DNA of 53,434 bases from a virus: positions 1-53,434 of IMG/VR virus record IMGVR_UViG_3300020470_000012. One strand, given 5' to 3'. Positions 15,101-46,000 of the stretch are shown here, piece after piece. Numbering within the stretch: position 1 is the stretch's first letter; each line of letters begins with the position of its first letter. The position numbers were made by a program, and so were the translations under genes. Below the pieces are notes generated by a model. The model did no database searches, was not told where the DNA came from, and was given only the letters and a program-made list of their open reading frames with translations.

Positions 15101-18100
15101 TGCTGGTACAAATTATCAGGATGGCAATCAATTCTTCAATCCTAAATGGGGTACTGGAGATAGATTCTATGTTGATAATACAGATACTCAAGGTGCTGGA
15201 TTTTCAGCAGAAGTTTCTTCTATTCTTCCCAAAGATCCAGATGGTAAGATTGTACATGTAGGTAGTATTGTTGCTAATGATATCATTGGAAAACTTGATT
15301 CTAGACAACAAAGACTAAAAGTTCCTTCTCCTACAATTATTCCAGGTACTAATAGACTGGTTTATAATAGGATATCTGAAGGTGATGAGATTACAGATAA
15401 TACTGTTTTAGAGCAGAGTTTTGAAACTTCCGTTGATATTGATGAAAAAGTAACAAATATTCAACTTCGTGCTAGAAATCTTGAAAATCTTAGCACAGGA
15501 ATGACATTAACACTTGAAGATGAAATAGTATATGTAAGTGGTACTCCAACTAATAATACTAAGTTTGTAAATGTTAGAGTTTCTTCTACAGAGCAATTAT
15601 CTAGTGATTTACCAATAACATCAGGATCACAAAAAGGATTCTATTATCAATATTTAAATGGATCATATGCATTTGATGAAATTTATGTTGATTCTCAAAA
15701 TGTTAGTTATAAGATTGGTAAGATTATAGGACTTGATAGAACTGCAAAGGTAATGCAGCTTGAGATGTATATTAATCCTGTTACTGATAATTACTATACA
15801 TTTACTGTTTCATCTACATTCAATCAGGCATTATATAACAATGCTGGTGGATATGAACATTCAATTAGTGTTGCTGATGTTGGATTTACAGGAATTGCTG
15901 CTGCAGCTGCACTTTATAATGGAACTGGATCAGCAAGTAGATTCTCTTCTTCAATACAATCACCAACTACAGAAACAAATTTATGGGGTGGTGCTAATAA
16001 TTACAACTATTTTGGTGAAGCACGTGCAGGGGATTTTGAATTTTCAAAGCAAGTTCCAGTAATTCGTTCATGGGATTCTTCTAAAGCAGTTCCTCATGGA
16101 TCAGGAGTTACTTTAAAAAGTCAAGTACCTACAGGGGTTATATCTGATTATACTGTAAAGATTTCTGTTGTTGGTGTATCCAGCATGGATGCATGGAATG
16201 TCGGGACTTATATAAAGGGAGCAGATTCTCAATGTGAAGGAAGAGTTGTAAAAGTAGAAAAAACAAGTCCAACTGAAGGTTATCTTTATATACAGGATAT
16301 AAAGTCAGGTCCAAATGCTGGAGACCTTCCTAGGTTTGGAAATTGGGATGGTACTAATTTTACTGGTGAAACTGTTAATGAAATTGGAATTGGTGCAACT
16401 AATACTATAGATGGTGGAGTTATTACGAGTTATAATCCAATAACACAGACCACTACACAACTTACTAAAACAATAGAAAATCTTGATACAATTTTACATG
16501 TAGCAAATCCTGACGCTTTCCCACTCGATAGGTATATTGCTATTGGTGTTGAAAAAATGCGAATTGTCTCTAGAGATCTGGAGAATAAAACATGGACAGT
16601 TGCTAGAAAACAGTTAGGAAGTGCATATCCTACTAGTGGTAGTCACTTAAATGGTACAGTAATTGAGATTTCAAATTCTGCAGGAACATTTACTGCAGGT
16701 TCTGATAAGTATTATGCAACGGTAGATTTATATAATGCTCAGACATTTACTTCATCAAGTACATTCAAAGATCAAGATGACCAAAATATTGATGTAGAAG
16801 AAGCAATATTGAATCCAATTACTGCTGATCAACGTAATATAACATTTGGTCCTACTAATTTTGATTTCTTCAATTTAGGAAATGTTATAAAGATTGGAAC
16901 AGAATTTATTCGTTTAGATGGAGTTGCTGGAAATATATTCCATGCTACTAGGGGATTTAATAATACTACAGCACAAGAACATGCTCATGATAGTTCAATA
17001 ACAAATCAGAGTGAACTTCAAGCTACTGTTACTGTAAGAGAAAAAGAAAATGGTGTTGATATTGGACCTATTTCTCATGGATTAGATGAATCTGATATAG
17101 TTGAAATATTTGGTGATCCATCAGAAGATGAAACTTCTAAAACGTTAGTTGAAGTAAAATTTGATGGTTCTGCTAATAGATTTAGATTTAAGAGTATTCA
17201 TACTAATGATACATTTGAATCTAATCCAAATCTAACTTTTGTATATGGTCATACATATGAATTTGATGTATCTGATCTAAGTAACCAAACTACTATATTA
17301 TCATTCTATAATGATGATTTGTATACTGATGAGTATGCTGTTGACAGAAATGGTACTCCAGGTAATGCTAATGCTAAGGTAACGTTATCGATAACTGATA
17401 CTTCTATTGCAAATTTATTCTATGATAATTCAAATAGTTCTATAACAGATAGTAATCCAAAAGTTAATTTTGTTGAAGATCCTTATAATGTTTCTGGAAC
17501 TTCTATATTCAATGTTACAGAATCTACTTTTGATTATATTGTCAAACGTAGGGTAGAAGGTTCTGCTAGAGGAACTAAAAAGATGGGAGTTGTTACTCCA
17601 AACGTTTTTGGAGAAATTGCTAATGTTAATATTCTAAATCAAGGTTATGGATATGAATCTCTTCCTATCATAAAGGGTATATCTTTAAGAGATGAAGATA
17701 AAATACGTTATACAATTACTGTAGATGAAGATAACGGAGCGATTACTTCAGTTGATGTAGTTTATGGTGGTAAAAGATATATAAGTCCAACAGTATATGT
17801 TATTGGAAATGGAACTGGTGCTAAATTGATTACTGATACTTTAGCTGGATCAGTTCGTACTATTAGAGTAGAAGATGGAGGTCTTGGATATTCAACTGGT
17901 ACTGAATTGCTTTTGGTTGAAGAAGATGAAAGAAATGTAAGAGTTCTTCCATCATCTTCTACTATCGGTAAAGTTATTGGACTCAATATAACAAATCCTG
18001 GTGCTCGTTTCTCCAATAACTTCACAATGGTTCCTGAGACTACTATTCCAACTTCAATGCAGTTGGTAAATCTCGGTAATGATAATCCAGATTCTCCCAA

Positions 18101-21100
18101 GAGATATGAGTTTGGTGAAAGAGTATATCAAGGTGATGTTAATAATCCTTTAGTTACTGGTATAGTTGTTGATTATAATGAAATAAATCAGACTCTTAGA
18201 GTAAAGAGTGTTGTTGGGGAATTTTTGGTAGGAGTACAACTAAGAGGATATCTTTCTGGAACTATATCTACACCTCAGACAGTCAATGCTGCTTCTATCC
18301 AGTCTACTATTGATGCTATTACTAGTATTAGTGGATTCTTCTCAGATGACTTAGGTAAACTAAGTACGTCATCTCAGAAGATTCAGGATTCCTATTTCTA
18401 TCAGGATTTCTCTTATGTTATCCGTTCTCAGATACCAGTATCCGACTGGAGAGAAATTATCAAGGATTCTACTCATCCTGCAGGTTTCTTAGTATTTGGT
18501 GAAGTTATTCTCGATTCTTCAGCAAGTGTAACTACTGTTCCTCTTGGTGGTAGTACAACTTGTCCTCCAAATGTACACAAATTTACTTTTGATACTAAAG
18601 CAGATATTGTAGCTGATTATACATCATCATATTCATGGGGAACAACATTGTTCTTGAGAAATGGTGCAGATATTAAAGTTGGAGATTCATTCAAATTCTA
18701 TCAGGATAGTTTTGATTATGAATTGAAATGGAAGGCAATAAATGCTGCTGGTGATATTATTGAGGGTAAATTAGTTGATCAGAAGATATATTATATAACT
18801 GATGCAATAAATGATGGATTAGGTAATGCACATGTAAAAATATCTTTGTATCATCCAAACGATACATTTGCTGACGCTGAACATAATAGAGAAAGATTTG
18901 ATTTATCTTTACAACCAACTTTAGGTTCTTATCTTCCAAACTTTACTTGTGATTCACAGAATCCATATAAACAGATTACTATTGAAGTATTCAAAGAGTT
19001 TATTGATATTGATCCTACAATTCCAATGGAATTGACAGATTCACTCAAGACTGTTCAAATCAATAAGTTCTTTAGAATGGTTGAGAGACCTGGTATGGGT
19101 TCTCTAATATCTGCTGAAGGAACAGTTGCTATTGATCTATCATATGTTGATGATATCACTGCTAATATTGATGGTATCAAGAAAATATATGATATTAGAG
19201 AAGAAGGATCTTTAATTTCTCCTTGGAGTGATAATTCATTACTTGTTACTATTGATGGTGTAGGGCAGGAACCTGGAAAGGCATTTACAATTATCAATGA
19301 TAGAAAGATTGAGTCATTAGAAATTACAAGTACTGGTGATGGTTCATTAGAGTATGATTCTTGGAAGATAACTAGTGGTTCAACAGATATTGATAATGGT
19401 GTTACTGTTGTAAGTGGTACTGCTGATGTTAAGCAAGTATATAAAGACGAAGAATTCATTTATATAACTTCGCAAGGTGTTCCATCATATACAGCAACTC
19501 TAGGTCCTTATAGTGGACTAAACCCCTCTTTCCAAGACTATATCAAGAGAATACCAACTGAGGTATTTGCTCCTGTAGATAAGGAACCTACTCCATTAGG
19601 AGTTATTGGAATATTTGCTAATGGAACCCTTTTACAAAACAGTACATTAGAAACAACATATAATAATAAAAATAAGTGGACTATAACTGAGGTTGGATCT
19701 AGCCCACTATCTGATGAATTTGGTGGCATGGCAAATACTAGAGGGCAGTATTATCAGGCATGTAATCCAATAGGATTGAGAAGACAGTTGAATGATAATA
19801 TGACATCATCTGGAGCTTATGCAGAAGATGCTACAACTCCAACACATTCACCTATCCTTGGATGGATGTTTGATGGTACTCCAATATATGGACCTTATGG
19901 ATATACAGATCCTCATTCTGCTATATCTGCTGTAAAGAGAATAGAAAGTGGATATTCTACTAGACAAATTGGTACTAGAAATACTTTTATTGATGGAACA
20001 ATTCTTACAGGAGATGATATTGGTCCCCCAGTAGACTCAGTTGAATTTAATGTAGTAGGATTTGTTCCGTTTGCTGGTGCTACTGATGAATTCCTTCCTG
20101 GTGCTGTACTTACTCAAGTAAACAGTCAAACAGATGATACTGTAGTTTCTGGTGTAAGTGGAATTGTTCAATCATTTGATCCTATTACAGGAAAAGTTCT
20201 AATCGCATCTGTGAATGGTGTATTCAGCCAAAATATGTGGGTCAAGAGTCCTACTGCTTGGTGTCAGATTAGTAACGTTCCTATCATATACAATATTGGT
20301 TACTTTGTAGAAGATTATAGTTATAGTTCAACAGGTGCAGACCTTGATGTTTATAATGGAAGATTCTGTGTAACTCCAGAATTCCCTGAAGGTAGATATT
20401 GTTATTTTGCAACTATAAAGAATGAAAATTATACTTATTCTACAACTAGTACTCCAGAATTGAATGCAGCATATCCATTTGTAGTTGGTCCGAATTTATA
20501 CCATAAGTTCTATCAAGAAAATCAACTTACTAAAGGTGAATTAGCATCTAAGATTATATTTGCAAATCCACCTAAAGAAATTATTGATAGTTCTACAGGT
20601 CATACTCAAACTCAGAAGTTTGTAGCTAGAAAATTTGGATTCTCTGATGTACCTAACAATAGGAATTTCAATAAGAAATTTGTTGATATTTCTCCTCAGT
20701 TTGATGGATATAAGACAACATTTGCATTACAATATAATGCTCAACAACCAAACTTTGCTCCTACTGATCCAATAGAACCAAGTGAAAATGCTTTAGTGTT
20801 CATGGATGGTATTATTCAGATACCTGGAGTTGATAAATCATATACCATAGATGATGTTGCCAATACAATAACTTTCAGTACTCCTCCTAAGAGAATTGGT
20901 AAGTTGATTAATATGAGTGAAATTGCTGGAATTCTAAATTTCAGAGAAAATGAGATTGTAGTTGGTAAAACAAGTGGAGCAACAGGAAGAGTTATTAATA
21001 GAACTCCTCTTGGATATGAAGGAAAGGGTGTACTAAAAGTTGAAGTACTAACTAAAGATTTTGTTGATGGGGAAAATATTACTGCTCCAGCAGTTTCTGG

Positions 21101-24100
21101 TGATGTAGAACCAAGAACAGGAAAGGATACAACTGGTGCTGTAATTCAATTAGGTAATCTTAATGTAAGCGGAGCTTCTTATGATCCTAATACAGGAGAA
21201 ATGATTCTTACAGTTAGTGATGTGAATCATTTGGTTGAAGATTTGAATGGAAATCTAATCAGTACTCCTATTACTACAAATGATGTTCTTAATATTAGAT
21301 ATAAATCTATAACATTTACTTGTTTCCAAGATAACCATCAAACTGAGCATAGTTATCCACGAGCAGGAGATCCAGCTCATCGTCAAAATTTGAATATTAC
21401 AGCAGTAGGTGCTCAGACTATTACTGTGAATGTAGGTGTATCTCCAAATAAAACAACTCATCTTTTTGTCAATGCATCTAATCCTGCAGTATTAGTCAAT
21501 GGAAAGACATTTGGTCGTCAAGAAATTGATACTCCTATAAACCTAAAAGGAACAGTAACTGCTAAGGATAGATTCTTAGATGCTGCAAACCTTCTTGAAG
21601 CAAACAAACAATTGATTGCTGAAGAATCTGTTTTAGCAATGTTGGATTATCCTGCATATAAAGGATCATTCTCAGTAGCATCAAATCAAGGTGGTAATTA
21701 TACACACCGTTTTGAAAGTGGTGTTACTAATGCTATTACTGCTAATGATGGTTCACAATATACTGCTGTTACCAATACAACTTATAACCCTGCATCTGGA
21801 TTCCTAACATTAGATATTGGAACTCATACTTTGACTACTGCTAATACAATTACTATTGATGATGGTGGAGTCACATTTAGTTGTGCTAAGGATAATAATG
21901 CTACAAATCATGCATATCCAAGAGCAACTGATCCTGCATCTGGGCAGTCATTAGCAATTACTGCTGCTGTTGGTGATACTATTACTGTAAATGTTGGATC
22001 ATCCCCATTTAATAATCAAGATTGTATTGATGATGTAAAGGATGTTATCTCTGCTATTGTTGATAATATTAGATTTGGTGGAAATGATGAAGTTTATGAT
22101 GCAGCAGACCTTTATGTAAATGGAGGGGTATTACAGCATCTTGTAGGTGAGGAAGAACCATCTAAATTAGCATTCAGGTGGGCAAAGGATCTTTGTGTTC
22201 TTGCTATGCAGAACAAGTTGAATGATTATAATAAACTTGGTACTGCTAATGGTTATTCTTCAATTGATAATGCTTCTACCAATAAGATGATTGATGGAGC
22301 AAATCTAATAGAATGGAATAAAGATCTAATTGCCCATGAAGCATTAGAAAGAATGTCTGCTCAATATCCTACTTACACTTACAATAGTGGATATACATCT
22401 GATGATTGTTTAGATGATTTGAAAGATACTCTTGATTGTATGATCTTCAATATGACTTATGGTGGAAATAATAAGACTTGGGATGCTGCAAACTTCTATG
22501 CTCAAGGTGCATATATTGTAACTGGAAAAGAGACAGAAATTGTTTATGCATTCAATGCTGCAAAGGATATTTCTTCTGAAGTTTGTCGTAATATTCTTGT
22601 GAATATTACAGGAAGTCATGGATTCACTCAGCATACTAATGCTACAATCACTGATTCTACAATTACTTCATTCACACCATCTGCTGCAACCTATAATCCA
22701 ACATCAGGTGAAATGGTTCTAACAATAGCCAATCATGGATTAACTTCAGCAAATACTATTGAGATAGATACAGATTCTTTAGAATTTACTTGTTCTATGG
22801 ATAATAATGCTACTAAGCATACCTATCCTAGATCTTCAGATCCTTCTAACAGTAAAGCATTAGAAATTCTCAATTCTACTACAAATACTATTACTGTAAA
22901 TGTTGGATCATCTCCTTTAGAAACTTATAATATAACTGATGCTGATTATAATGAGACTAGTGGTGATATGGAGATTACTATTGGTGATCACAACTTTATT
23001 GAAGGTTCTGGTATAAAGTTAGCTGCCAATTCACTAACCTTTACTTGCCTAAAAGATTTCAATGTAACTGAACATTCATATCCTCGTACAACAGATCCAG
23101 TTTATGATAAGTCTATTCCAATCAAGAGTATTGGTACAATACCATATAGTATAAGTGATGCGGATTATAATCCAGAAACAGGAATAGTTACTTTGACTGT
23201 ACCTGGTCAATCATTTACTAATCCAACAAGGCATACTGCAGAGAGTGCTTCTTATAATCCTTTAACAGGTGAATTGACTGTCACAGTTGGTACTAATAAT
23301 ACCTTTAAAGTTTCTGACATGATTAGGATTGCTCCTAATTCAATGTTCTTTACATGTACTATGGATGCTAATGCTACACAACATTCATATCCTCGTCTTT
23401 CCGATCCTGTAGCAAATAAGTGGTTGCCTATTAGTGGAGTATCTACTTCTTCATTCACTGTAAATGTTGGTACATCTAATATTAGTGGATATGATGTATC
23501 AGATTCTACATATAATCCTACAACTGGAGATCTAACTTTAGATATTGGTCCTCATAATTTAGACATAGGAACATCAATTAGAATTGGAAAGGATTCTTTG
23601 AGATTTACATGTGATATGGATAATAATGGTAGTTATCATACTTATCCAAGATCAACTGATCCTTTCTATGATAAAGCAGTCAATATTAGTGCTAAATCAT
23701 CTACCACGATAACTGTCAATGTTGGAACTACTCCTCTTGCAAGTCATAATGTTACTGATGCTACCTATGATACAACTTCAGGTAATCTGCAGTTGGAGAT
23801 TGGATCTCATACCTTACAGGTTGGTGAGAGTATTAGATTGCAACCAGAATCTCTAACATTTAGTTGTGCATTCAATGGTGCTTCAGGTGCTGCTGCTGAG
23901 AAGGCATATCCTCGTGCAACAGGTGCTACTACCAATACTGGTGCTGATTATGCATATAATACTGCTCTTGAAATTATTTCAATAACTTCAACAAAAATTA
24001 CCGTAAATGTAAATGGTGGTCAAGGTGCTATAAGCAATAGTGATGTTCATACATTTGTATCAGCAACTTCTGGTGCTGTGGTCTCAGGTGGTAATTATCC

Positions 24101-27100
24101 ACACACATATGTAAATCAATCTAATACATTTACACCAACTGGTGCATCATATAATCCAACAACAGGTTTTATGACACTAACTGTGAATGATCATAAGTTT
24201 GGTAATGGCGATCATATAAGAATTGCTGATAATTCCATTGTAATGACATGTACTCATGGTAGTGGGCAGAAATCATATCCAAGAATTAGTGATCCTGTTA
24301 GTGGTAAGTGGATACCAGTTTCTAATGTAACTGCAAATACATTTGATGTTCAAGTTCTAGATTCTGCTCCATCTACTAATACTACTCCTCACACATTTAT
24401 TTCTGCACAAACTAATTGTATAGAAAGAGCTGTTGTTAGTACAGGTGGAAATTACGCACATACATTTATTGATGCACTTGCTGGAGGAATTGAGAAAGCA
24501 ACTCAATTGGTAAAATTAGATGATAATGCATTGATGTTCCAATGTGCTATGGATGATTATGCAACAAATCATACTTATCCTCGTCCTTCTGATCCATATA
24601 ACTCAAGATGGCTTCCTATAAGTGGAGTTGATGGAGATAATTTTGATATTCAAATTGGAGTTTCTCCAAATAAATCTAAACATAAATTTATAACTGCAGA
24701 ACCTAATAGTCTAAAAATACAAGATGGTAAAATTACAATCAATGTAGGAAGTTCATCTTTACCTACTGATCATCACCCTCATACATTTGTAAGAGCAACT
24801 GATGGTGCATTGATTAGTGGTGGTAGTTATACACATTCATTCAGTTCTGCTAAGGATAATTGCATTACTGCAAGAACTATATTGCCTACTTTAGCTCCAA
24901 CTGATGCAACATATGATGCTACTACTGGAAACTTAGTAATTACATCTAAGGATCATGGATTAACAACTAATGATAGAATTAGTATTACTCCAAATTCAAT
25001 GAACTTTACATGTTCAATGGATGGCAATTCAACAGAGCATAGTTATCCTCGTAAGTCTGATCCAGTTGCTGCTGCTGTAATACCTGTTGCAACAATCAAT
25101 AATTCTGATACATTTACAGTGAATGTAGGTGCTTCACCAACAGTAAATCATAATGTTTCTAATGCAACTTATGATTCTGTTACAGGTAATATGATACTTA
25201 CTATTGGAAATCATACTTTGAATAAAGGGACATCAATCAAGTTAGCAGATAATTCACTAACATTTACATGTGCTAAAGATGGTAATGCTACTAATCACAC
25301 ATATCCCAGAACAGATATAATCAATAAAAATATTGATACTGCTTCTTATAATCCTGTTACAGGTATATTGAGTATTACCAGTACTGGTCATGGATTCTCT
25401 AATGGAGAAACTGTAAAGATTGCTAATAACTCTATTACGATGAAATGTTTGATGGATGGTAACTCAGTAAATAAAAATTATCCAAGATCAACAGATCCTA
25501 TTAGTGATAAATGGGTTGAAGTACAAAATGCACTTACAGATACATTTGATATATTTGTTGGTAAATCTCCTTTAGTCAAATATACACCTGGTCCTGGAAC
25601 TACATATGATCCTAATACAGGTCTTGTAGTTCTCAACATAGGACCACATAATTTAGTTGGTGAGAAGAAATTTACTCCTGCTGCTGGTACAACATACAAT
25701 CCTAATACAGGTATTCTGTCTGTTAGACATGTAGATCATGGACTAATTGTTGGTGATCAGATTAGAATAGCACCTAATGCAGTTACTTTCACATGTTTGG
25801 AAGATAATAATCAGACTAATCATTCTTATCCACGTCCTTCTGACCCTGTTGCTAATAAAGTAATAGACGTTGTTGCTGTGACTGCTGATACATTTGATGT
25901 TCAAGTTTTAGATACTATACCTTCTACTAACGTTACAGATCATACATTTGTATCTGGTATTGCTAATAGCATCACAAAGGCAGGTCATTCTATTAAACTT
26001 GCTGCTGATGCATTGAAGTTTACTTGTGCTAAAGATAATCACGCAACATTCCATACATACCCAAGACCAAGTGATCCTAATTTCAATACTGCAATCGACA
26101 TAAAAGACGTTACTGATACAACTATAACAATACAAGTATTGAATACTATTCCATCTACTAACACCTCAGATCATATATTCATTGAGGCAACTGCTGATTC
26201 AGTTATTGCTGGTGGTAATTATACACATACATTTGTATCAGCAACCACTAATGCAATTAGTCATAGAAAAGATAATGCATATGATAATTCTATTGAGATT
26301 ATTCAGGATGGATCACTTCATACTGTAACAGATGCCACTTATAATCCAATAACAGGAAAAATGGTAGTTACTGTTCCTACTCATGGATTTAGTAATGGTG
26401 ATCATATCAAGTTTAATAATGGTTCCTTGAAGTTTGAATGTACATTTGATACTACTATTGTTCAATCCTATCCAAGACCAACTGATCCTTACAGTAATAA
26501 GTGGTTATCTATAACTTGGATTGATAATGATACGTTTGAAGTCTTTGTAGGAAAATCTAGTAACACCACTAAACATACATTTGTAACTGCAGACACAGAT
26601 GGTCTAACAAGAAATAATGGTCAAATTACAATCAATGTTGGGGTTGCTGAAGTTGCTGAACAGTATACACATACATTTGTATCAGCAACTCCTAATGCTG
26701 TAATTTCTGGTGGTAATTATGCACATACATTTGTAAGTGCCTATAGCAATGCAATTAAAGTTCTTGGTTATGATACTAATGATTGTGCTGATGTAGTTTC
26801 CGCTATAGCATCACTCAATAGTATTGTTACTAATGCAATTACAACTCCATCATCCTTATCAAGTGTTGTAAGAACTCCTCCTAATGCATATCCATTGAAA
26901 TATACAAATTCTGATAATTTGGTATTTGATAATGATATTGCAATAGATCCTGCTTCAAGAAATTATACTGTGTCTTGTGCTGATGTTGCATCTTCTATCA
27001 GTACTTTGATGGATATCATTATCAATACTATTGATAATCCAGCATCTTTTGCTTCTGTTGTTAGGACTCCTAAGAGATCTTATATTGAAAAGAAAGGAAT

Positions 27101-29408
27101 ATTCCAAGAGTTCTTTGCATATTCTAATGGTAAATATGCTATCTTAGATGAAATTGATATTACATCTTCCGCAACAACATTTGTTATGACGCAAGATGGA
27201 AAATTAGTAATACCTAATATATCTGAACAGATTGTTGTTACTGTCAATGGTGTTGTTCAAGAATTTGGACAAGCATATGTTGTCAATGAGTCTCTAATTG
27301 AATTCTATAAACCAATTGCAGCAGGTTCTGATTTACAGATTATATATTGGTATGGTAGAGATTTGGAGAAAGTTCTCAAGGGTTATAACGTACCTCTCTA
27401 TGAACCAAGTTACATTAAGAGAGACAGTACTGGTGCTCCTATTCTCTTTACTACTGAGAGTGGAATACCAACAAATAAGAGAATTAGAACTCTTCCATTA
27501 GAAGCATATCCTATTTACGAATTCTTCAGACTAGGAGATAATATCAAGATAGATGGAGAAAATGCTGAAAGAGAGCTTATAGATCTTTCTAACAGAGATA
27601 TTATTGAATGGGAGAAGAAAATTGGTACTAATGAATATTCACTTGATGCTGCTACTGGTATTCTAGGTTCTCCTATAGAGATTAGATTTGAAACTTATGG
27701 CAATCAATCAACTTCTGGATTTATATCTGGAACTAAAGTTGTATATGACAATAATGGAAATAGTGATATTCCTGGATTGACTAATGGAACAACATATTAT
27801 CTTGGATATACTTATACAACTAAAGGAGTCAAGTTATTTGATAACTACCTAGATTCTATTGGTGGTGGAACAAATTCCATAGCAATATCTCCTGGAACAG
27901 GAGTTCATAAGTTTCTACTCGAAACTGATTTATCTGGTCTAAAACAGACACAATTCAAGACTTCTGATTATACTGGTGAAATTAGAGGACGTGAAGCTAC
28001 CTTTACTGCAAGGGTTAGATTTACAATGCTTCTATCTGATTCAACTGCATATACCACTCCAGGAACAATTATGTTTAGTGGTGGTCAATCTGTTGCATCA
28101 GTAGTTCAGGATCTTGGTAATAATAAAGTAGAGATTCAAATATATCCTGATAGAATTCTTGCTGATGGAGCAACAATAACAACTGATCTTGGTGGATCTA
28201 ATTCTGTAACCTTGACTTCTAAGGAGAATGGTTATGTTTATGAAATTGATTCTCTAACTGGATCATTCCCAACTGGATTAGATTATGATACTGCACCTAT
28301 TCTTATAATCAAGGCTGCAGAAACTGATAACGGTGGATTTGCAAGAGCACATGCTGAAATTGATCAGAATAAACAGATTTCTAAATGTGTTGTTGATGAA
28401 CCTGGTGAAAATTATTTCCAAGTACCAGAAGTTCTTGTTACCAGAGCATATAAGCATATTACTCAAACATATCCTCTTGCTCTAGTAAGAAATCAATATA
28501 ATTTCTGGTCATCCTTTGATACTACATTGAGAACTACTATGGTTCTTGATGCCAAGCAACTTACTGTTAGTTTTGATACTACAATAACTACTACACCACT
28601 TACAAAAGCTGGTCAAGAAGTTACAATATTCCGTACTGATGAGATTGTTGATGATCTCTTAGCTGATGATTCATCAAGAGTATATGATTATCATGGTTCA
28701 ACTGATCCTGCATTCCCAACAGAATCTGCATCTGGTATACCAAATCAGGTTTCTATAGGTAATTTGAAATTATTCCCAACATTCCAATCTTTTGAAGAGA
28801 ATAAGTTCAATGTAGATAATACATTAACTATTGGTGCTCTTGATAATAAGTTTGGATCATTAAGAATCAAGGATGTTGCTGATAGATTCTATTCTTCATT
28901 ATATGAAGATGCAAACGTTGCAGGACATCAGCAGATAAGATTTGATGCTACATGCCATACCATGATAAGAGAATTTGCTGGAAAATTCTCTGTAGCTGGT
29001 TCTATTGGAAATAATTTTATTAATTTAGAAGGTGTTCAAGGATTCAACTATATGACAGTTGAAGGTAATACTTTCTGGTTGACTGAGGATATGGCAATCT
29101 ATGAGGAAAGAACATTTGTTATTGTTGGTTATGTGGATAAGATTATTGATTCCAACACATTTATTCTAAGATTGAATGTTGGTCAAAATCTCTTATCTGG
29201 AACCAATATAAGTAATGTAGCAAATACTGTTATGGTATCCATTGCTTCTCAGGTTTCTGGAGAAATAGAAACAGGTAAGGAACGTCTTGCCTATGATCAA
29301 ATAGATTGGGTAAATAAGAGGTTGCTTCTTACACAACCACTAACCCATAATTATAATGTAGGGGAGTCGATCAGAACTGCCCGACCTATCCGCTTAGGAT
29401 CTACTTAG
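12114..29408 (+). CDS. Giant multidomain virion protein at the gp7 position, 5764 aa
   Basis: A single uninterrupted frame of 17.3 kb follows gp6 directly. T4 gp7 (1032 aa) occupies this place, and residues 1-260 (SDFFRQEYPTFVKFFEEYYK, ASKGTSPAIEFLFRSAF) look like a wedge-docking domain. Downstream, by residue: GxGY-type beta modules (about 591-730, 1833-1940); two YHYH-type domains with HSPILGWAYDGVPIYGP (about 753-950) and HSPILGWMFDGTPIYGP (about 2541-2793); a tandem array of about 17 full or partial repeats (about 3019-4880) with a Cys/His/YPR core; duplicated helical modules (DCIDDVKD/DCLDDLKD, SCADVA); and a fibre-like C-terminus. No signal peptide or membrane segment. It is probably a baseplate-anchored fibre or shell. 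gp7 homology is inferred from position plus N-terminal character. Confidence 0.85.
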   Translation: MIKVSQLVDSQLSDFFRQEYPTFVKFFEEYYKATEIDGASTGLLRKIQKYQNADFYKDGIILETTLAVDIDETQEYIELSQKTDNKGRAIWERFPEEGLLLLDDGTNREIVQYKNISFGTLSSIRRGSSGSIKLGDLLNDSTFLNTTGTAFSASNTTVTNISHLFLATLFKNLKSQYFSGIPIERLNQDISVPTILKYIKDFYASKGTSPAIEFLFRSAFNDEKILVRYPNEQLLKSSVSTWSVDTILQGTLIKFHDNATVDNLPGLVLKQITYGYDQTIGEATANIEKVIPIKSGNDTLYRIFLNAESIIGNFQPANETRSNSTFGSNNETLVVDSTIGFPEINGEFYVEGINDTDGIPISFSYAEKTATEFYGVATNATGFTGVPKSQSVFGSNILYVVSDSQDDPFKDGYTASFRPAGLISETPITGKGLFVKEEDVVEFGLSGKKQDSPINSSWRQNVPSTEDNVRVVSYAGTMVNTYISGSYIVSRGVNQVFENNSHVFVSSNGFPDVLSIGEIRQGPHSALAVASQRHLKKIPKVPSLGKSKVKQPDNGTIGVTIDGVPIISLTGQNTELDGPILGQGGQLVSAGELNDITVVDGGFGYTAPPKVIISDDFGQGAIATAQISGGKVIGVTLSSPGAYQQTPEVTISAGSGAQMTTEFASNNVTGEIKNLNIIQAGQDYTQVPEIVIVDESGRGRGARFVVSTIDPTSGSISAIRKVSGGYDYDVSKTKIYIVPTASGATVEAQLTEWHRDNIKEYSRYSDKHNGYPFPGLIPEYHSAYNYVGNPIGIRNVLGDNIVAGNEQAGNLEHSPILGWAYDGVPIYGPVGYEDPLPSQSGDWSIKRLESSYFLKDARNAIGIVAYQMGTFTEDYEYKPDGDPLHQDLDEFNGRFCETPEFPLGRYCYFTTVHSSRDPNQVDRYDIKPRFPYVIGPTFKYAPESSNWDSTSILKNLPSDVIRVRDVNNNLPQFGSLVGATVSNVSSGSIDSVIVENAGTNYQDGNQFFNPKWGTGDRFYVDNTDTQGAGFSAEVSSILPKDPDGKIVHVGSIVANDIIGKLDSRQQRLKVPSPTIIPGTNRLVYNRISEGDEITDNTVLEQSFETSVDIDEKVTNIQLRARNLENLSTGMTLTLEDEIVYVSGTPTNNTKFVNVRVSSTEQLSSDLPITSGSQKGFYYQYLNGSYAFDEIYVDSQNVSYKIGKIIGLDRTAKVMQLEMYINPVTDNYYTFTVSSTFNQALYNNAGGYEHSISVADVGFTGIAAAAALYNGTGSASRFSSSIQSPTTETNLWGGANNYNYFGEARAGDFEFSKQVPVIRSWDSSKAVPHGSGVTLKSQVPTGVISDYTVKISVVGVSSMDAWNVGTYIKGADSQCEGRVVKVEKTSPTEGYLYIQDIKSGPNAGDLPRFGNWDGTNFTGETVNEIGIGATNTIDGGVITSYNPITQTTTQLTKTIENLDTILHVANPDAFPLDRYIAIGVEKMRIVSRDLENKTWTVARKQLGSAYPTSGSHLNGTVIEISNSAGTFTAGSDKYYATVDLYNAQTFTSSSTFKDQDDQNIDVEEAILNPITADQRNITFGPTNFDFFNLGNVIKIGTEFIRLDGVAGNIFHATRGFNNTTAQEHAHDSSITNQSELQATVTVREKENGVDIGPISHGLDESDIVEIFGDPSEDETSKTLVEVKFDGSANRFRFKSIHTNDTFESNPNLTFVYGHTYEFDVSDLSNQTTILSFYNDDLYTDEYAVDRNGTPGNANAKVTLSITDTSIANLFYDNSNSSITDSNPKVNFVEDPYNVSGTSIFNVTESTFDYIVKRRVEGSARGTKKMGVVTPNVFGEIANVNILNQGYGYESLPIIKGISLRDEDKIRYTITVDEDNGAITSVDVVYGGKRYISPTVYVIGNGTGAKLITDTLAGSVRTIRVEDGGLGYSTGTELLLVEEDERNVRVLPSSSTIGKVIGLNITNPGARFSNNFTMVPETTIPTSMQLVNLGNDNPDSPKRYEFGERVYQGDVNNPLVTGIVVDYNEINQTLRVKSVVGEFLVGVQLRGYLSGTISTPQTVNAASIQSTIDAITSISGFFSDDLGKLSTSSQKIQDSYFYQDFSYVIRSQIPVSDWREIIKDSTHPAGFLVFGEVILDSSASVTTVPLGGSTTCPPNVHKFTFDTKADIVADYTSSYSWGTTLFLRNGADIKVGDSFKFYQDSFDYELKWKAINAAGDIIEGKLVDQKIYYITDAINDGLGNAHVKISLYHPNDTFADAEHNRERFDLSLQPTLGSYLPNFTCDSQNPYKQITIEVFKEFIDIDPTIPMELTDSLKTVQINKFFRMVERPGMGSLISAEGTVAIDLSYVDDITANIDGIKKIYDIREEGSLISPWSDNSLLVTIDGVGQEPGKAFTIINDRKIESLEITSTGDGSLEYDSWKITSGSTDIDNGVTVVSGTADVKQVYKDEEFIYITSQGVPSYTATLGPYSGLNPSFQDYIKRIPTEVFAPVDKEPTPLGVIGIFANGTLLQNSTLETTYNNKNKWTITEVGSSPLSDEFGGMANTRGQYYQACNPIGLRRQLNDNMTSSGAYAEDATTPTHSPILGWMFDGTPIYGPYGYTDPHSAISAVKRIESGYSTRQIGTRNTFIDGTILTGDDIGPPVDSVEFNVVGFVPFAGATDEFLPGAVLTQVNSQTDDTVVSGVSGIVQSFDPITGKVLIASVNGVFSQNMWVKSPTAWCQISNVPIIYNIGYFVEDYSYSSTGADLDVYNGRFCVTPEFPEGRYCYFATIKNENYTYSTTSTPELNAAYPFVVGPNLYHKFYQENQLTKGELASKIIFANPPKEIIDSSTGHTQTQKFVARKFGFSDVPNNRNFNKKFVDISPQFDGYKTTFALQYNAQQPNFAPTDPIEPSENALVFMDGIIQIPGVDKSYTIDDVANTITFSTPPKRIGKLINMSEIAGILNFRENEIVVGKTSGATGRVINRTPLGYEGKGVLKVEVLTKDFVDGENITAPAVSGDVEPRTGKDTTGAVIQLGNLNVSGASYDPNTGEMILTVSDVNHLVEDLNGNLISTPITTNDVLNIRYKSITFTCFQDNHQTEHSYPRAGDPAHRQNLNITAVGAQTITVNVGVSPNKTTHLFVNASNPAVLVNGKTFGRQEIDTPINLKGTVTAKDRFLDAANLLEANKQLIAEESVLAMLDYPAYKGSFSVASNQGGNYTHRFESGVTNAITANDGSQYTAVTNTTYNPASGFLTLDIGTHTLTTANTITIDDGGVTFSCAKDNNATNHAYPRATDPASGQSLAITAAVGDTITVNVGSSPFNNQDCIDDVKDVISAIVDNIRFGGNDEVYDAADLYVNGGVLQHLVGEEEPSKLAFRWAKDLCVLAMQNKLNDYNKLGTANGYSSIDNASTNKMIDGANLIEWNKDLIAHEALERMSAQYPTYTYNSGYTSDDCLDDLKDTLDCMIFNMTYGGNNKTWDAANFYAQGAYIVTGKETEIVYAFNAAKDISSEVCRNILVNITGSHGFTQHTNATITDSTITSFTPSAATYNPTSGEMVLTIANHGLTSANTIEIDTDSLEFTCSMDNNATKHTYPRSSDPSNSKALEILNSTTNTITVNVGSSPLETYNITDADYNETSGDMEITIGDHNFIEGSGIKLAANSLTFTCLKDFNVTEHSYPRTTDPVYDKSIPIKSIGTIPYSISDADYNPETGIVTLTVPGQSFTNPTRHTAESASYNPLTGELTVTVGTNNTFKVSDMIRIAPNSMFFTCTMDANATQHSYPRLSDPVANKWLPISGVSTSSFTVNVGTSNISGYDVSDSTYNPTTGDLTLDIGPHNLDIGTSIRIGKDSLRFTCDMDNNGSYHTYPRSTDPFYDKAVNISAKSSTTITVNVGTTPLASHNVTDATYDTTSGNLQLEIGSHTLQVGESIRLQPESLTFSCAFNGASGAAAEKAYPRATGATTNTGADYAYNTALEIISITSTKITVNVNGGQGAISNSDVHTFVSATSGAVVSGGNYPHTYVNQSNTFTPTGASYNPTTGFMTLTVNDHKFGNGDHIRIADNSIVMTCTHGSGQKSYPRISDPVSGKWIPVSNVTANTFDVQVLDSAPSTNTTPHTFISAQTNCIERAVVSTGGNYAHTFIDALAGGIEKATQLVKLDDNALMFQCAMDDYATNHTYPRPSDPYNSRWLPISGVDGDNFDIQIGVSPNKSKHKFITAEPNSLKIQDGKITINVGSSSLPTDHHPHTFVRATDGALISGGSYTHSFSSAKDNCITARTILPTLAPTDATYDATTGNLVITSKDHGLTTNDRISITPNSMNFTCSMDGNSTEHSYPRKSDPVAAAVIPVATINNSDTFTVNVGASPTVNHNVSNATYDSVTGNMILTIGNHTLNKGTSIKLADNSLTFTCAKDGNATNHTYPRTDIINKNIDTASYNPVTGILSITSTGHGFSNGETVKIANNSITMKCLMDGNSVNKNYPRSTDPISDKWVEVQNALTDTFDIFVGKSPLVKYTPGPGTTYDPNTGLVVLNIGPHNLVGEKKFTPAAGTTYNPNTGILSVRHVDHGLIVGDQIRIAPNAVTFTCLEDNNQTNHSYPRPSDPVANKVIDVVAVTADTFDVQVLDTIPSTNVTDHTFVSGIANSITKAGHSIKLAADALKFTCAKDNHATFHTYPRPSDPNFNTAIDIKDVTDTTITIQVLNTIPSTNTSDHIFIEATADSVIAGGNYTHTFVSATTNAISHRKDNAYDNSIEIIQDGSLHTVTDATYNPITGKMVVTVPTHGFSNGDHIKFNNGSLKFECTFDTTIVQSYPRPTDPYSNKWLSITWIDNDTFEVFVGKSSNTTKHTFVTADTDGLTRNNGQITINVGVAEVAEQYTHTFVSATPNAVISGGNYAHTFVSAYSNAIKVLGYDTNDCADVVSAIASLNSIVTNAITTPSSLSSVVRTPPNAYPLKYTNSDNLVFDNDIAIDPASRNYTVSCADVASSISTLMDIIINTIDNPASFASVVRTPKRSYIEKKGIFQEFFAYSNGKYAILDEIDITSSATTFVMTQDGKLVIPNISEQIVVTVNGVVQEFGQAYVVNESLIEFYKPIAAGSDLQIIYWYGRDLEKVLKGYNVPLYEPSYIKRDSTGAPILFTTESGIPTNKRIRTLPLEAYPIYEFFRLGDNIKIDGENAERELIDLSNRDIIEWEKKIGTNEYSLDAATGILGSPIEIRFETYGNQSTSGFISGTKVVYDNNGNSDIPGLTNGTTYYLGYTYTTKGVKLFDNYLDSIGGGTNSIAISPGTGVHKFLLETDLSGLKQTQFKTSDYTGEIRGREATFTARVRFTMLLSDSTAYTTPGTIMFSGGQSVASVVQDLGNNKVEIQIYPDRILADGATITTDLGGSNSVTLTSKENGYVYEIDSLTGSFPTGLDYDTAPILIIKAAETDNGGFARAHAEIDQNKQISKCVVDEPGENYFQVPEVLVTRAYKHITQTYPLALVRNQYNFWSSFDTTLRTTMVLDAKQLTVSFDTTITTTPLTKAGQEVTIFRTDEIVDDLLADDSSRVYDYHGSTDPAFPTESASGIPNQVSIGNLKLFPTFQSFEENKFNVDNTLTIGALDNKFGSLRIKDVADRFYSSLYEDANVAGHQQIRFDATCHTMIREFAGKFSVAGSIGNNFINLEGVQGFNYMTVEGNTFWLTEDMAIYEERTFVIVGYVDKIIDSNTFILRLNVGQNLLSGTNISNVANTVMVSIASQVSGEIETGKERLAYDQIDWVNKRLLLTQPLTHNYNVGESIRTARPIRLGST
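21174..26640 (+). repeat. Tandem protein-repeat array inside the giant gene
   Basis: About 17 full or partial units of roughly 75-90 codons follow one another. A unit starts TYNPxTGxLxLTIxxH, then GxxIxIxxxSLxFTC. The core is C-x-x-D-x-N-x-T-x-H-x-Y-P-R-x-x-D-P, and the unit closes with a TITVNVGxSP strand. I count 15 copies of the Cys...YPR core; most keep both Cys and His. Some units carry an inserted HTFVSA hairpin. Near-identical DNA stretches of 20 bases or more recur between units (for example around 21980 and 22890, and around 26222 and 26665), so copy number could change by recombination. Confidence 0.85.
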
Positions 29409-39789: not shown

Positions 39790-40005
39790 ATGGATTATAG
39801 AATAGAGGGTCGATCTGACCTTTTGAAGGATCCCTCTAAGGGATCTGTAATCAATACAGACAAGACTGCATATCAGAGATACTTGCAGTCTAAAAGTCAG
39901 AATATGAAATTTCAAAATGCGGTAAGCGATATAAATAATCTAAAGGCAGAAGTCTCTGAAATAAAAACGTTACTAACGGAATTCCTTAAGAAGAATGGCA
40001 ACTAA
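39790..40005 (+). CDS. Small coiled-coil protein, 71 aa
   Basis: The frame extends upstream into the previous gene, but ATG 39790, one base after the upstream stop, is the natural start (MDYRIEGRSDLLKDPSKGSV). Residues 43-71 (NAVSDINNLKAEVSEIKTLL) show a clear heptad pattern. The product is soluble and strongly charged. The stop overlaps the next start by 11 bases. Comparable short coiled-coil proteins occur between large structural genes in this phage group and may act as trimerisation or assembly adaptors; that role is inference. Confidence 0.75.
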   Translation: MDYRIEGRSDLLKDPSKGSVINTDKTAYQRYLQSKSQNMKFQNAVSDINNLKAEVSEIKTLLTEFLKKNGN

Positions 40006-43000
40006 TAAAGTACTACTAACCAAAGCAGCGTCTAATTCAAAGACCTTACAACAAATTGCCGATGACGTTGTTGCCAAGGTAGCTGGTTCTTCGTTGGTAA
40101 AAATTCTCGTTAGTCAAGATACGATTATATTTGATACCGATAATAGCAGAACCCAAGCACAGTTGAAGACTGGAATTGATGATCTGAATCATGGTAAAAC
40201 GTATCTAGATCATGAAAATTTTAAATTTTTAGGAACCAGATCTACTGTTGTTCCAGGAGTAGGTTCTTCACATTATTGGCATTTAGATGCTATTACTAGA
40301 CTTAATTATCAGGCTGCCAAAGCGGCTGGAAATGTAACGACATATTCTACAAGTAATGAAGGTGATGAAGTAGATATCTATATTTTAGATAGTGGTGTTA
40401 GAGGTGCTAGTAGACCAACAGGAGTTGATGTTGGATTACATCCAGAATTTTATAATCCAGATAATAATACAAACTTAAACGGAACTTCAGAACAAGCAGA
40501 TTATAGGGTATACGAACTTCCATCTGCTTTATATACTTCACCTGCTACTGGTGGATCAAACGAACCACAAAGTACAGGTAGTAATTCATCAGATGGTCAT
40601 GGTACTTATGCTGCTATATGTGCTGCTGGTGTTCGTGCTGGTGTAGCAAACAAAGCAAGAATTTATTCAGTCAGGATCAGTGATGATACTGGTGTTATGT
40701 CTTATAGTAGTATAAGAACTGCATATGATGCTGTCTATAATCATAACGATCCGACTCATGCAAATTACAAAGGAAATACTCTTGATGGTAATACTAGACC
40801 AAGACCTTCTATAGTTAACTGTAGTTTTGGTAGCACACTTCCTAATCCATTAAGTCCTTGGGTTGATAGAAATGAGAGATATGTCGGACAAAACTATACT
40901 TTCAATGTTACTGCAACAGGTAACTCAAACTATACTATTAGTGGAACTGATGCTAATGGAGCAGTATCAGGAGACGACCCAAACATCTTCTGTAAAAAAG
41001 GAGACACCCTAACATTCACAATGAATGCTTCTGGGCATCCTTTCCATATTCAGACTGGTGGAGCTTCATATAATAATAGTTTAGCTGCTGGTGGTGTTAG
41101 TGGTGCTGGTAATGCTGCTAGTGGAGATGTTGTATTTGATACTGCACATGGATGTGTAGGTAAAGCTAGTGGATCATTTATATATGTTTGCCAAAATCAT
41201 GCATCGATGCTTGGAAACATTTATGTAGAGCAATCACCAACTACTAATAATGGTACTAATGAACTATTAGATGATGGTGAACATATGTTGGGAATGCTCA
41301 AGAACGTTACTGTTTGTAGATCTGCTGGTAATGGATTAGATTTTGAGTTGAATGATGTACCTACTGATTATGGTCCTGTCAATACTAAGGTTGTGTATGG
41401 ATCTAGGTCTACTGGTCAAGATTCAAAACTTGATGCAGAAATTACTTTAACAGATAATTATTCTAGAAGAGGAGAACAAGTTGGATATGGAGAAGAAGAT
41501 ACTTCTGATGTTATTACTGTAGGTGCTCTAAAAATTGGATCATCAAATAAACTTGAATTCGCAGACTTTACCAATTATGGTGAAGCAGTTACTGCATATG
41601 CACCAGGACAAGGTATCTATCTTCCATCTTATGATTGGTCATCAGGAACTGTAACCAATGTTGATTATTCTAATGGTAATCATATAACCATCAGTGGAAC
41701 TTCTTTTTCATCTCCAATTGTAGCTGGAATGTCTGCTATCTTCAGACAGATTCATGATGGAGCAGCAGAGGGTAAAGTATGTGCTAAATGGGCAGCAGAA
41801 AGAAGATATCAATTTGCAGATCTTGATGATAGTACTGATATAGCATCAACTCCAGTAGGGGGTTGGTTGAATAATACAGTTGTTAGTGATGGTGCTGCTA
41901 CTACAAACTTCTTCACTGATCATAATACTGAAACTCATTACAGATTCAAGACTAATGCAGGAACTAATAATATTGTAATGCAGTTGACAACTGGGGAATA
42001 TAATATTATAGGTCCATCAGTTGATGATATTTTTGAATTTGAATTTCCTAGAGTAGAAGATTCTCCTAATGCTCCAGATGTGAACTCATTGATGAGAGCA
42101 CAGATGAAGAAGGATACATTTAACCTTGGAGAAAGAAGAGATTATAAATTTACAGTTAGTAATCCAGGTGGAGGAAATAAACTTACTTGGGATAGAATGC
42201 AAAATGGTGTTCCTAATGGAAACCCACAAGCAGGAATACCATTGGAATTAGATAATGGTGTTGTTTATCGTTTTTATCAAACTGATCCAAGTAACTTAAC
42301 TCATCCAATTGACATATCAGATACTTCAGATGGTACTCATGCTGGAGGAAAATCTTTTGTAGATTATGTAGATCAGGTTATTGGTAAGGGTGCTCATGGT
42401 TATAGGATGAACCTTAAATATTATGTTGATCAAGGTGGACTAACTCAAGTTGATAAGACAACATATGATAATTTAGCTGGTTCTGGTCCTGAGTGTTTTA
42501 TTGAATGGATCAACCCAATGGGTAATACACACCCAGATGTAGATTCTTCTGTATATCCAACAGATTGGCATTACTATTGTGTAAACCATCCAGGTATGGG
42601 TTCAGGAATAATTCAATCTACATCTAATAGTGGATTTGGTAATACAACTGAATGTACTATTGGTGGAATAGATATTCAAGAGTTCTGTAGTAAGTGGAGA
42701 AAAGTAACAGCTGTATCTAGTATTGATAAAACAATTACTTTCCAAGCTGATACCACTGCAACTCATACAGAAGAAGGTGGTGGAGGTGGATTCAATAATT
42801 GTCTCGCAGGAGCTGAATATGCCACTGGTGATAAGCCACGTTGGCCAATGCGTTTCACTAAGATTACTGGTACATTCTATGAGAATGATGCTTTCTGGAA
42901 TTGGATCAATAATCATAGTAATGTAGTTAATGGAAATTCATATGCAGGTGGAGCGTTTACTGCTGGTGAATATTGGGCTCGATTAGAAGTAGAAGAAGGA

Positions 43001-46000
43001 GTATCTGATGGTAAGCCAGTTCAGTACTTCCCAGTTCCAAAATCAAGATTTACTCATCAATCAATATCATCAGAATGGGAGAATACACATGCCTATCCTG
43101 ATAATACTTTGTATAATGCAGGTTCACGTTGGGGTCGTGGTAAGTATGATAACGTCCAACATAAATTCGTTCCAGTACCAGAAGAATTTAGTAGAGATCA
43201 TATCTATGATATGATTCCAGTATTCCATCCATATATTGATTTGATTGCTTCTTGGACTACTCCAAGTGGTTTAATCGGAACATTAACGAATGGTACTTCA
43301 GTAAATATAGATTTATCAGTTTCTGCTATTACAACATTTGCTAATGAAACTATAGGAAGTGGACATACACCAGAATATGAATTAGTTTCTGGTGGAGGAA
43401 GAGCTCCTTTCACTTATAGTTCGGGTACTGGTAAGTATACTATAGATGGAACAGGATTGGCGTTGGATCAAACAACTGGAGCATTACAAGGAACTTGTAC
43501 CAATCCAAACAATGATACAACTTATACTCTTCAAGTAAGAGATAAAGTATCTGATCAAGCTATTGATTATAGTTTTACTCTTGTAGGAACTGCTTCTGGA
43601 TCTTCTACAGTTACAATTACTGGAAGTCCTTCTAACGCAACAGGTGATGGTTCATATCCTGTAGATAGTGGAACCGTTACTTATACATGTTCAGCGACAG
43701 ATAGTTTAGGTACAACACTTGAGTATCAATGGAAATACGCAATAAATTCTACACAAGCAAACTTAGGTAATTGGACTAATGTTCCTACTACAGGATCGTT
43801 TGCAGGAGCTGGAGGAGTAAATACAGATACCTTAACCATTCCTGATAATCTATTATTGGATGGTTATCTCTTTAGTTGTGTAGTCAATTCAAGTACTGCT
43901 GCTTCTTCAGAACAAACTGGAAGTGCATCTCTAAGCATAACAGTTACAGTATCATGTACTGCATGGTGGAGTGGTCAAACAAGTCTTTATGCAGCAACTG
44001 AATGTGCAGGAACAAGTGGTACTTGTACACAAGCAGAAGTTGAAATACAAGCAGTTTCTAGTGATGGAGCAACTCTAAATCTTGCACCAGGATATAATTC
44101 AACTCTAACTGGTAATGAAACTGATATCGTTAGTAGAATAGTTGATGGTAATAATTTCTGTTTAGAAGCATTAGGTGGTAATGGTACTAATGGACATCCA
44201 TTATATCGTGTAAAACTTGGATATGGTAGCATTACCTTCAATGATAATAATCAAACAATTAAGATTACTGCTACACACCCAACATTAGGAACAAGTGCTA
44301 CTGCTACTAGTGTAGGTGGTCCATTTACTATAAATCCAAATTATAATGAGAGTCCACCTTCACCTACAACTGCATCGGTACAATCTGGAAATGCTCATTC
44401 ATTTACTGTTTCTTATGGTCATAGTAGTGCAAACTTTGGTGGTGCTGCTGCAACAATTATTTGGAGATATAAGTTAGATGGAGGAGCTGGTTGGGTAACT
44501 GTTGATGGTACTGAATCTTGGTTCTCATCAAGAGATGATTCAACTACTAATAGTTCAACTCTTACAATTGCACCAACAACTACTTTTGATAATTCTATAT
44601 GGCAAGCTACTGCGTATGTTGATACAGCAAGTAGTGGAGTTACAGATACTAAGGATATTGCTAAGTATAGTTCTGTCTTTAGCAATCAGGTAACTCTGAC
44701 AGTACTTGCTGCACCAACAATCAATCTTCAAGCACCTAGTGGTGTTACTCCTGATAATAGTATATCAGTTACCAAAGGTACTCTTTCTGCATCTGAACAC
44801 TTACTAACAATTGTATCAGATGGTTTACCTGACCCTGCTATTCATGGGGCAGATTTTGTAGCTCCAAATGATCTACGAGTTGTAGAGAGAACTCATAGTA
44901 TTATTTACAGAGGTGGTACTAATACTCCATCTCTAACTCCTTGGACTAACAATGCATTAGGTGTATTTGCTAATGGTGTTAGTGTAAGGTATCCATCTGC
45001 AGGAACTGATAAACTTCCTAATGGTGTTGAATCACCTCCTGCAACATTACAGTTCAACGAAGTTCATTTCGCATCATTATATAATGCAGACGCAGCAAGT
45101 GGTTTCTGTGAAACTACTGGTGAATATCATTATCAAACAAGTGCATTCTTATCAGCATGGGCAGGAGATAGTTGGAGAGGAGTTGCTGGTTCAAATGGAT
45201 ATTATAAAAATAGTAATTTTAGTGGAGATAATTTCAGACATTCTGATGGTCACTCTAAGATTGTAGGTATCGCATATGATGGATATCCAATTTATGGTCC
45301 TTTTGGTTATACAACATATAACGATAATACATCTGCAATAAAGAGAGTAACATCTTCATTTGCTCTAAAGGCAAATGACAATCATAGACCTACAAACTGG
45401 AAGTTTACTGATGAGGTTACTTTTACTGACAGTACACCCAATGCGACATTGGTAAATGGAAGTTTCATTGAAGACTATCAGTATAATCCTGGTTCTGGTG
45501 ACTTGGATCAATCTAATGGTAGATATTGTGTAACTCCAGATTATCCAAATGGAACTTATGCATACTTCATGCCCCAAGATGCAGGTAATAATCCACAGTT
45601 TCCATACATTGTTGGTACAGCACTAAGACAGGCATATTACTTACCTGGAACTAATGCTAGTGATCCAGGTGGTACGAATACTCAAGGACCAGGATCTGGT
45701 GGATTTGATATTACCAGTATCTTCTGTAAGGGTATGACAATGGTTGCCGAGACAGGTGGCGATAATACTCGTGAGATTACTGGTGATACTGCGTCAATGC
45801 AATTTGGTTCTGCACCATATACTTATATTTGGCAGAAGAGTAGTGATAATGGAACAACTTGGGTTGATATAAGTGCAGCTGATGCTGGATTCTTCAATGA
45901 GAATAGTGATACACTAACAGTATATGATAAAAATGCAGGTATTGATGATTTACTTGTTAGGATCAAGGTAACAAATAGTTTAAGTGTATATAAGGTTTCT

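Follow-up and report, generated by a model that had tools for sequence, protein, structure and literature searches.

A subtilase with a predicted cupredoxin-like domain inside its catalytic fold, encoded in the tail gene block of an S-BM3-like marine cyanophage

A 2690-aa protein encoded in the tail/baseplate block of a marine cyanophage was found to carry an S8 (subtilase) catalytic domain that is interrupted by a predicted cupredoxin-like domain, a combination that appears to be undescribed. The sequence analysed, here termed the window, was the 53,434-base virus record IMGVR_UViG_3300020470_000012. Its gp6 homologue was 77.9% identical to that of Synechococcus phage S-BM3 (vs ~41% for the next isolates), which by sequence identifies the virus as a marine S-BM3-like T4-type cyanophage. 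Encoded 5′ of the subtilase gene were (i) a PAAR-motif protein and gp25- and gp6-like baseplate wedge proteins; and (ii) a 5764-aa ORF, a gp8-like protein, and a 2878-aa protein; tail-fibre-like and unknown ORFs followed on the 3′ side. The assignment of the subtilase to the phage structural proteins is based on this gene position. A matching order was found in S-BM3, in which baseplate wedge, 'virulence associated protein', 'peptidase S8', hypothetical proteins, and a tail-fibre-like protein follow one another. The 5764-aa product is encoded by a single ORF at 12114-29408 of the window, flanked by the gp6- and gp8-like baseplate genes. The initial annotation had regarded the protease-cupredoxin architecture as new; in agreement, a search of the open-access literature found no mention of a cupredoxin, plastocyanin, or subtilase-cupredoxin fusion in cyanophage tails. 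Known already were the S8 peptidases of S-BM3 and of P-HM1 and P-HM2, the latter noted in 2010 (PMC3037559). Many marine phage tail genes encode either S8 or the cupredoxin-like module separately.

Catalytic domain of the tail-block subtilase

The 2690-aa protein is related to the S8 proteins of Prochlorococcus phages P-HM1, P-HM2, and MED4-213 (phrog_27200, 3.1e-205), whose records carry the note T4-GC 519, and to the 'peptidase S8' of S-BM3. An Asp/His/Ser triad in the canonical S8 motifs and the oxyanion Asn had been reported for it from the letters of the sequence; Asp132, His202, Asn446, and Ser570 were indeed located at exactly those residues and were unvarying in all 64 phage S8 rows of an alignment (A7) that includes sequences with only 20-25% identity to the window protein. 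Pfam Peptidase_S8 (PF00082) matched at 2e-17 in two stretches on either side of the insert when residues 1-640 were scanned; S8 emerged only from this N-terminal scan, with no S8 match in a Pfam scan of the entire 2690-aa protein. By phmmer against the PDB, both S8 halves were aligned with aqualysin at 2.1e-8.

The structure prediction and fold search that the initial annotation had proposed were based on an AlphaFold2 model of residues 90-615, built from 84 alignment rows in which the S8 rows were mixed with 20 modules (mean pLDDT 72, pTM 0.70). The model superposed on keratinase 5wsl, a proteinase-K-type enzyme, with Z 27.8 and an rmsd of 2.5 Å (246 of 282 residues), and since it superposes on enzymes of this type the S8 catalytic fold is predicted to be unbroken by the insertion, in a model that is moderately confident as a whole and poor over the stretch ~447-501 near the active site. 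Proteinase K, aqualysin, and keratinase 5wsl have the fold, the triad, and the oxyanion Asn in common with the window S8, whereas subtilases of the proteinase K family are secreted cellular enzymes with no inserted domain.

The regions on either side of the catalytic domain were also examined. A weak model (overall pLDDT 44), drawn on only for residues 1-71, placed strands and helices at E5-10, H18-29, E33-38, E43-47, H54-62, and E67-71, with pLDDT mostly of 62-87; this beta-alpha-beta-beta-alpha-beta succession is the order of an I9 prodomain. Because Pfam gave no I9 match in the N-terminal region, we infer from the secondary-structure order that residues 1-71 are probably an I9-type prodomain. 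Further along the chain lies a YHYH domain, a type predicted elsewhere to be a tail-associated metal-dependent hydrolase (PMC7824862); given that prediction, S8 and YHYH may represent two enzymes in one chain. The coordinates of all features are collected in Table 1.

Table 1. Features of the 2690-aa protein and their positions in the window
Feature	Position	Strand	Evidence
Tail-block subtilase with cupredoxin-like modules, YHYH domain, and Ig-like repeats; 2690 aa	39995..48067	+	ORF
Probable I9-type prodomain, residues 1-71	39995..40207	+	secondary-structure order only
S8 (subtilase) catalytic domain, residues ~90-600, interrupted by insert	40262..41794	+	Pfam PF00082, PDB phmmer, model
Catalytic Asp132 (ILDSG)	40388..40390	+	invariant in 64/64 S8 rows
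Catalytic His202 (DGHGT)	40598..40600	+	invariant in 64/64 S8 rows
Predicted cupredoxin-like domain within S8 fold, residues ~298-414	40886..41236	+	profile, Pfam Copper-bind, model
His348 (GHP), first predicted copper ligand	41036..41038	+	alignment of modules
Cys399-x2-His402-x2-Met405, other predicted copper ligands, amicyanin-type loop spacing	41189..41209	+	
Asn446, oxyanion-hole residue (SAGN)	41330..41332	+	invariant in 64/64 S8 rows
Nucleophile Ser570 (GTSFSSP)	41702..41704	+	invariant in 64/64 S8 rows
Putative second cupredoxin-like module, residues ~750-878	42242..42628	+	profile chain, weaker
YHYH domain PF14240, residues 1651-1863	44945..45583	+	E 1.5e-32

The inserted cupredoxin-like domain and its ligands

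The spacing of the catalytic residues delimits the insertion. The distance of 368 residues from the catalytic His to the Ser, correctly noted at the outset as unusually long, compares with roughly 214-218 in most insert-free homologues, and ~126 of the extra residues fall between the His and the Asn (244 residues here vs ~118 without the insert). A cupredoxin-like domain had been placed in this interval at about residues 295-415 on the basis of a GHPFH motif and a C-x2-H-x2-M loop. Our analysis supports such a domain at ~298-414 with His348 as a ligand; however, His351, the second His of GHPFH, was not conserved. The insert was also said to sit exactly between the VNCSFG strand and the SAGN segment; it does follow the VNCSFG strand, but a helix separates it from SAGN.

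The cupredoxin assignment was derived from a profile, which was needed because the window module by itself matched nothing by Pfam and gave weak PDB matches by phmmer. When a profile of 18 modules (A3) was compared with the PDB, the matches were almost exclusively copper proteins, including plastocyanin (1.5e-6), copper nitrite reductase (1.6e-6), amicyanin (5.5e-6), and rusticyanin (1.4e-5), which raises the cupredoxin resemblance far above chance. Pfam Copper-bind was matched by 16 of the 18 aligned modules (best 6.4e-6). The joint model was at its best in the inserted domain, which was modelled as beta strands with high confidence (pLDDT 94-97 over ~300-369 and ~95 across most of the domain). 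The fold search of the 90-615 model against the PDB recovered the S8 half of the expectation; no cupredoxin was among the matches listed, all of which were subtilases, and because subtilases filled them this absence says nothing about the inserted domain. Among the matches listed by a BFVD fold search was a 'Blue type 1 copper protein' from a giant virus (E 1.7e-3).

The predicted copper ligands of the inserted domain are His348, Cys399, His402, and Met405, the set expected of a cupredoxin. The amicyanin-type layout recognized initially holds, as amicyanin likewise has a His and Cys-x2-His-x2-Met; amicyanin and plastocyanin, however, are free-standing electron carriers that are neither inserted in proteases nor phage proteins. 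Ligand conservation was assessed by masking the four ligand columns, rebuilding the profile, and searching all loci. Reduced to a non-redundant set (pairwise identity of 70% or less), the modules numbered 57; all four ligands were kept in 55 of these and none in the other two, a count skewed upwards by the loci that had been fetched with patterns containing Cys or His-x2-Met. Among loci fetched before the pattern scan, mostly by protease sequence and in a few cases by whole-query matches that included the module, no covered copy lacked the His, Cys, or His ligand, and 19 of 20 had the Met. Every module copy inside a protease retained the full set. This retention makes a metal site likely, and the inserted module is thus predicted to hold a functional one. 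The N-terminal modules of two P-HM-type S8 proteins (loci L032 and L160) retained the scaffold without the Cys, His, and Met of the loop.

Distribution and origin of the module

Cupredoxin content extended beyond the range first reported, as a second putative C-x2-H-x2-M domain was detected in the window protein at ~750-878, with candidate ligands His770 and Cys862-x2-His865-x2-Met868. This second module is more divergent, is tied to the first only via a profile chain (A9 to A8 to A3), and had no direct match in the PDB profile search. A long insertion separates its first His from the C-x2-H-x2-M loop, and the module was so far seen only in the insert-carrying clade. In one close relative (L005, 3037-3399) an entire extra module was inserted at about residue 720 of the window numbering, giving a clean with/without pair.

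Modules were found at several other positions and in other proteins. The P-HM-type S8 proteins have two, one following S8 and the other separating it from the prodomain-like region, while cyanophages S-H9-1 and ACG-2014i/j/e resemble the window in combining S8 with one cupredoxin-like module of the same ligand set and differ from it in that the module is C-terminal to a distant S8 (only ~20-25% identical to that of the window). Further copies occurred in baseplate-fibre connectors and in the tail spike and fibre proteins of P-SSM2. Cellular copies were encoded by marine Bacteroidetes and by one MAG each of Lysobacterales and Euryarchaeota (L187, L184-L198); a single-sequence scan of genome contigs for the module gave no match, and these cellular modules were found by the A6 profile. 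Its occurrence at many positions and in non-proteases marks the module as a mobile component from which marine tail proteins are built, and not as protease-specific.

Inside S8, the module had a much narrower distribution. The His-Asn interval was 238-248 residues in the carriers of the insert (the window, a near-identical contig, L004, L005, L016-L020, L099, and isolate S-BM3), compared with 116-118 residues in P-HM1, P-HM2, MED4-213, and about 70 environmental relatives. The P-HM1, P-HM2, and MED4-213 proteins are homologous to the window protein and are likewise long multi-domain tail-region proteins with all catalytic residues, but lack the internal module. The S-BM3 protein (WDS61281.1) has the same S8, the same internal module, and the same neighbours; its record is annotated solely as peptidase S8 with the module unmentioned, and its sequence has diverged from the window (48.7% identity over residues 3-640). 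The modules inside S8 formed a single clade (support 92/97), and an S8 tree from which the insert columns had been left out likewise placed the carriers on one side of a branch (SH-aLRT 92). With the carriers forming one clade, the simplest reading suggested is a single old insertion in their common ancestor, retained over deep divergence. A sequencing or assembly artefact was ruled out by the presence of the insert in about ten records including an isolate, and an erroneous fusion of two genes by the single ORF in S-BM3 and the IMG/VR relatives.

Possible role in the phage tail

The explanation that we consider the most probable as a whole, and hold with some confidence, is a self-processing tail protease that acts at the host surface, its cleft flanked by the module. 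In outline, the cupredoxin module would have entered the loop that joins the VNCSFG strand to the helix ahead of the oxyanion Asn, once, in an ancestor of the lineage. The VNCSFG strand we take to be the substrate-binding segment that ends near Gly127-128 of subtilisin; because the insert follows this strand and precedes the helix to the oxyanion Asn, the established subtilisin topology would put the module at the edge of the cleft in which substrate is expected to bind. We infer an enzyme located in the virion that would remove its own prodomain during assembly and then cut proteins of the host envelope at adsorption or penetration, together with the YHYH domain and Ig-like repeats that its chain also carries. 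The module itself would be a rigid, probably copper-loaded beta-sandwich that may affect catalysis by shaping or shielding the cleft, or may help in surface binding. The proposed role at the host surface derives from the position of the gene and the domains that accompany S8.

Parts of this scheme have competitors. A prodomain-like N-terminus and a gene within the tail/baseplate block would also suit an assembly or maturation protease that cuts itself and neighbouring tail proteins and has no host-surface role, but S8 is here fused to a long series of surface-type domains (YHYH and Ig-like repeats), which is more entry-like, and to our knowledge T4 assembles its tail without any S8 enzyme; we regard a pure assembly role as unlikely. 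That the S8 domain is a pseudoprotease serving as a binding scaffold only seems very improbable, given an intact predicted fold and D/H/N/S residues that do not vary in 64/64 diverse phage S8 domains.

As for the module, tail fibres, spikes, and baseplate-fibre connectors carry it without a protease, two of the 57 non-redundant copies have lost all ligands, and some N-terminal copies are without the Cys/His/Met, as would be expected of a metal-free or incidental beta-sandwich that decorates the chain for spacing or adhesion, like the Ig-like repeats, with no effect on proteolysis. Such decoration is somewhat doubtful in our judgement, since all four ligands are present in every in-S8 copy and in 55/57 modules and the insert was retained across the deep divergence of the carrier clade. 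At the other extreme stands a copper or redox switch, in which the cleft would open or close when the module is loaded with metal or reduced, triggering proteolysis at the cell surface. The insertion point between the substrate-binding strand and the helix to the oxyanion Asn and the complete ligand set fit this idea; on the other hand, the internal module is absent from most related proteases and the module is common outside proteases. Its N-terminal, C-terminal, or internal placement, its presence in non-proteases, and the lack of an internal copy in most relatives weaken the notion that the module exists to control the protease, and an entry protease gated in activity or specificity by a copper site inside its own catalytic domain thus appears quite improbable. 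Compared with these alternatives, we favour the self-processing host-surface protease with a cleft-flanking module.

If these predictions are correct, a blue-copper-type domain would be a component that recurs in marine phage tail proteins with its ligands conserved, and the window would offer one case in which such a domain was inserted in an enzyme without breaking its fold. In the copper-poor surface water where cyanophages encounter their hosts, a copper site in the tail would be an unexpected metal demand or a sensor. The same architecture in isolate S-BM3 makes these proposals testable.

Two records of P-HM-type S8 genes are of separate note: (i) in L063 (2877-8003), the gene was divided into two ORFs between the His and the Asn, whether by a frameshift or by a true break; and (ii) the P-HM-type phage S8 protein encoded in L188 (1445 onward) has 2078 aa and carries modules, so that this contig, although filed under a Prochlorococcus single-cell genome, is probably phage DNA.
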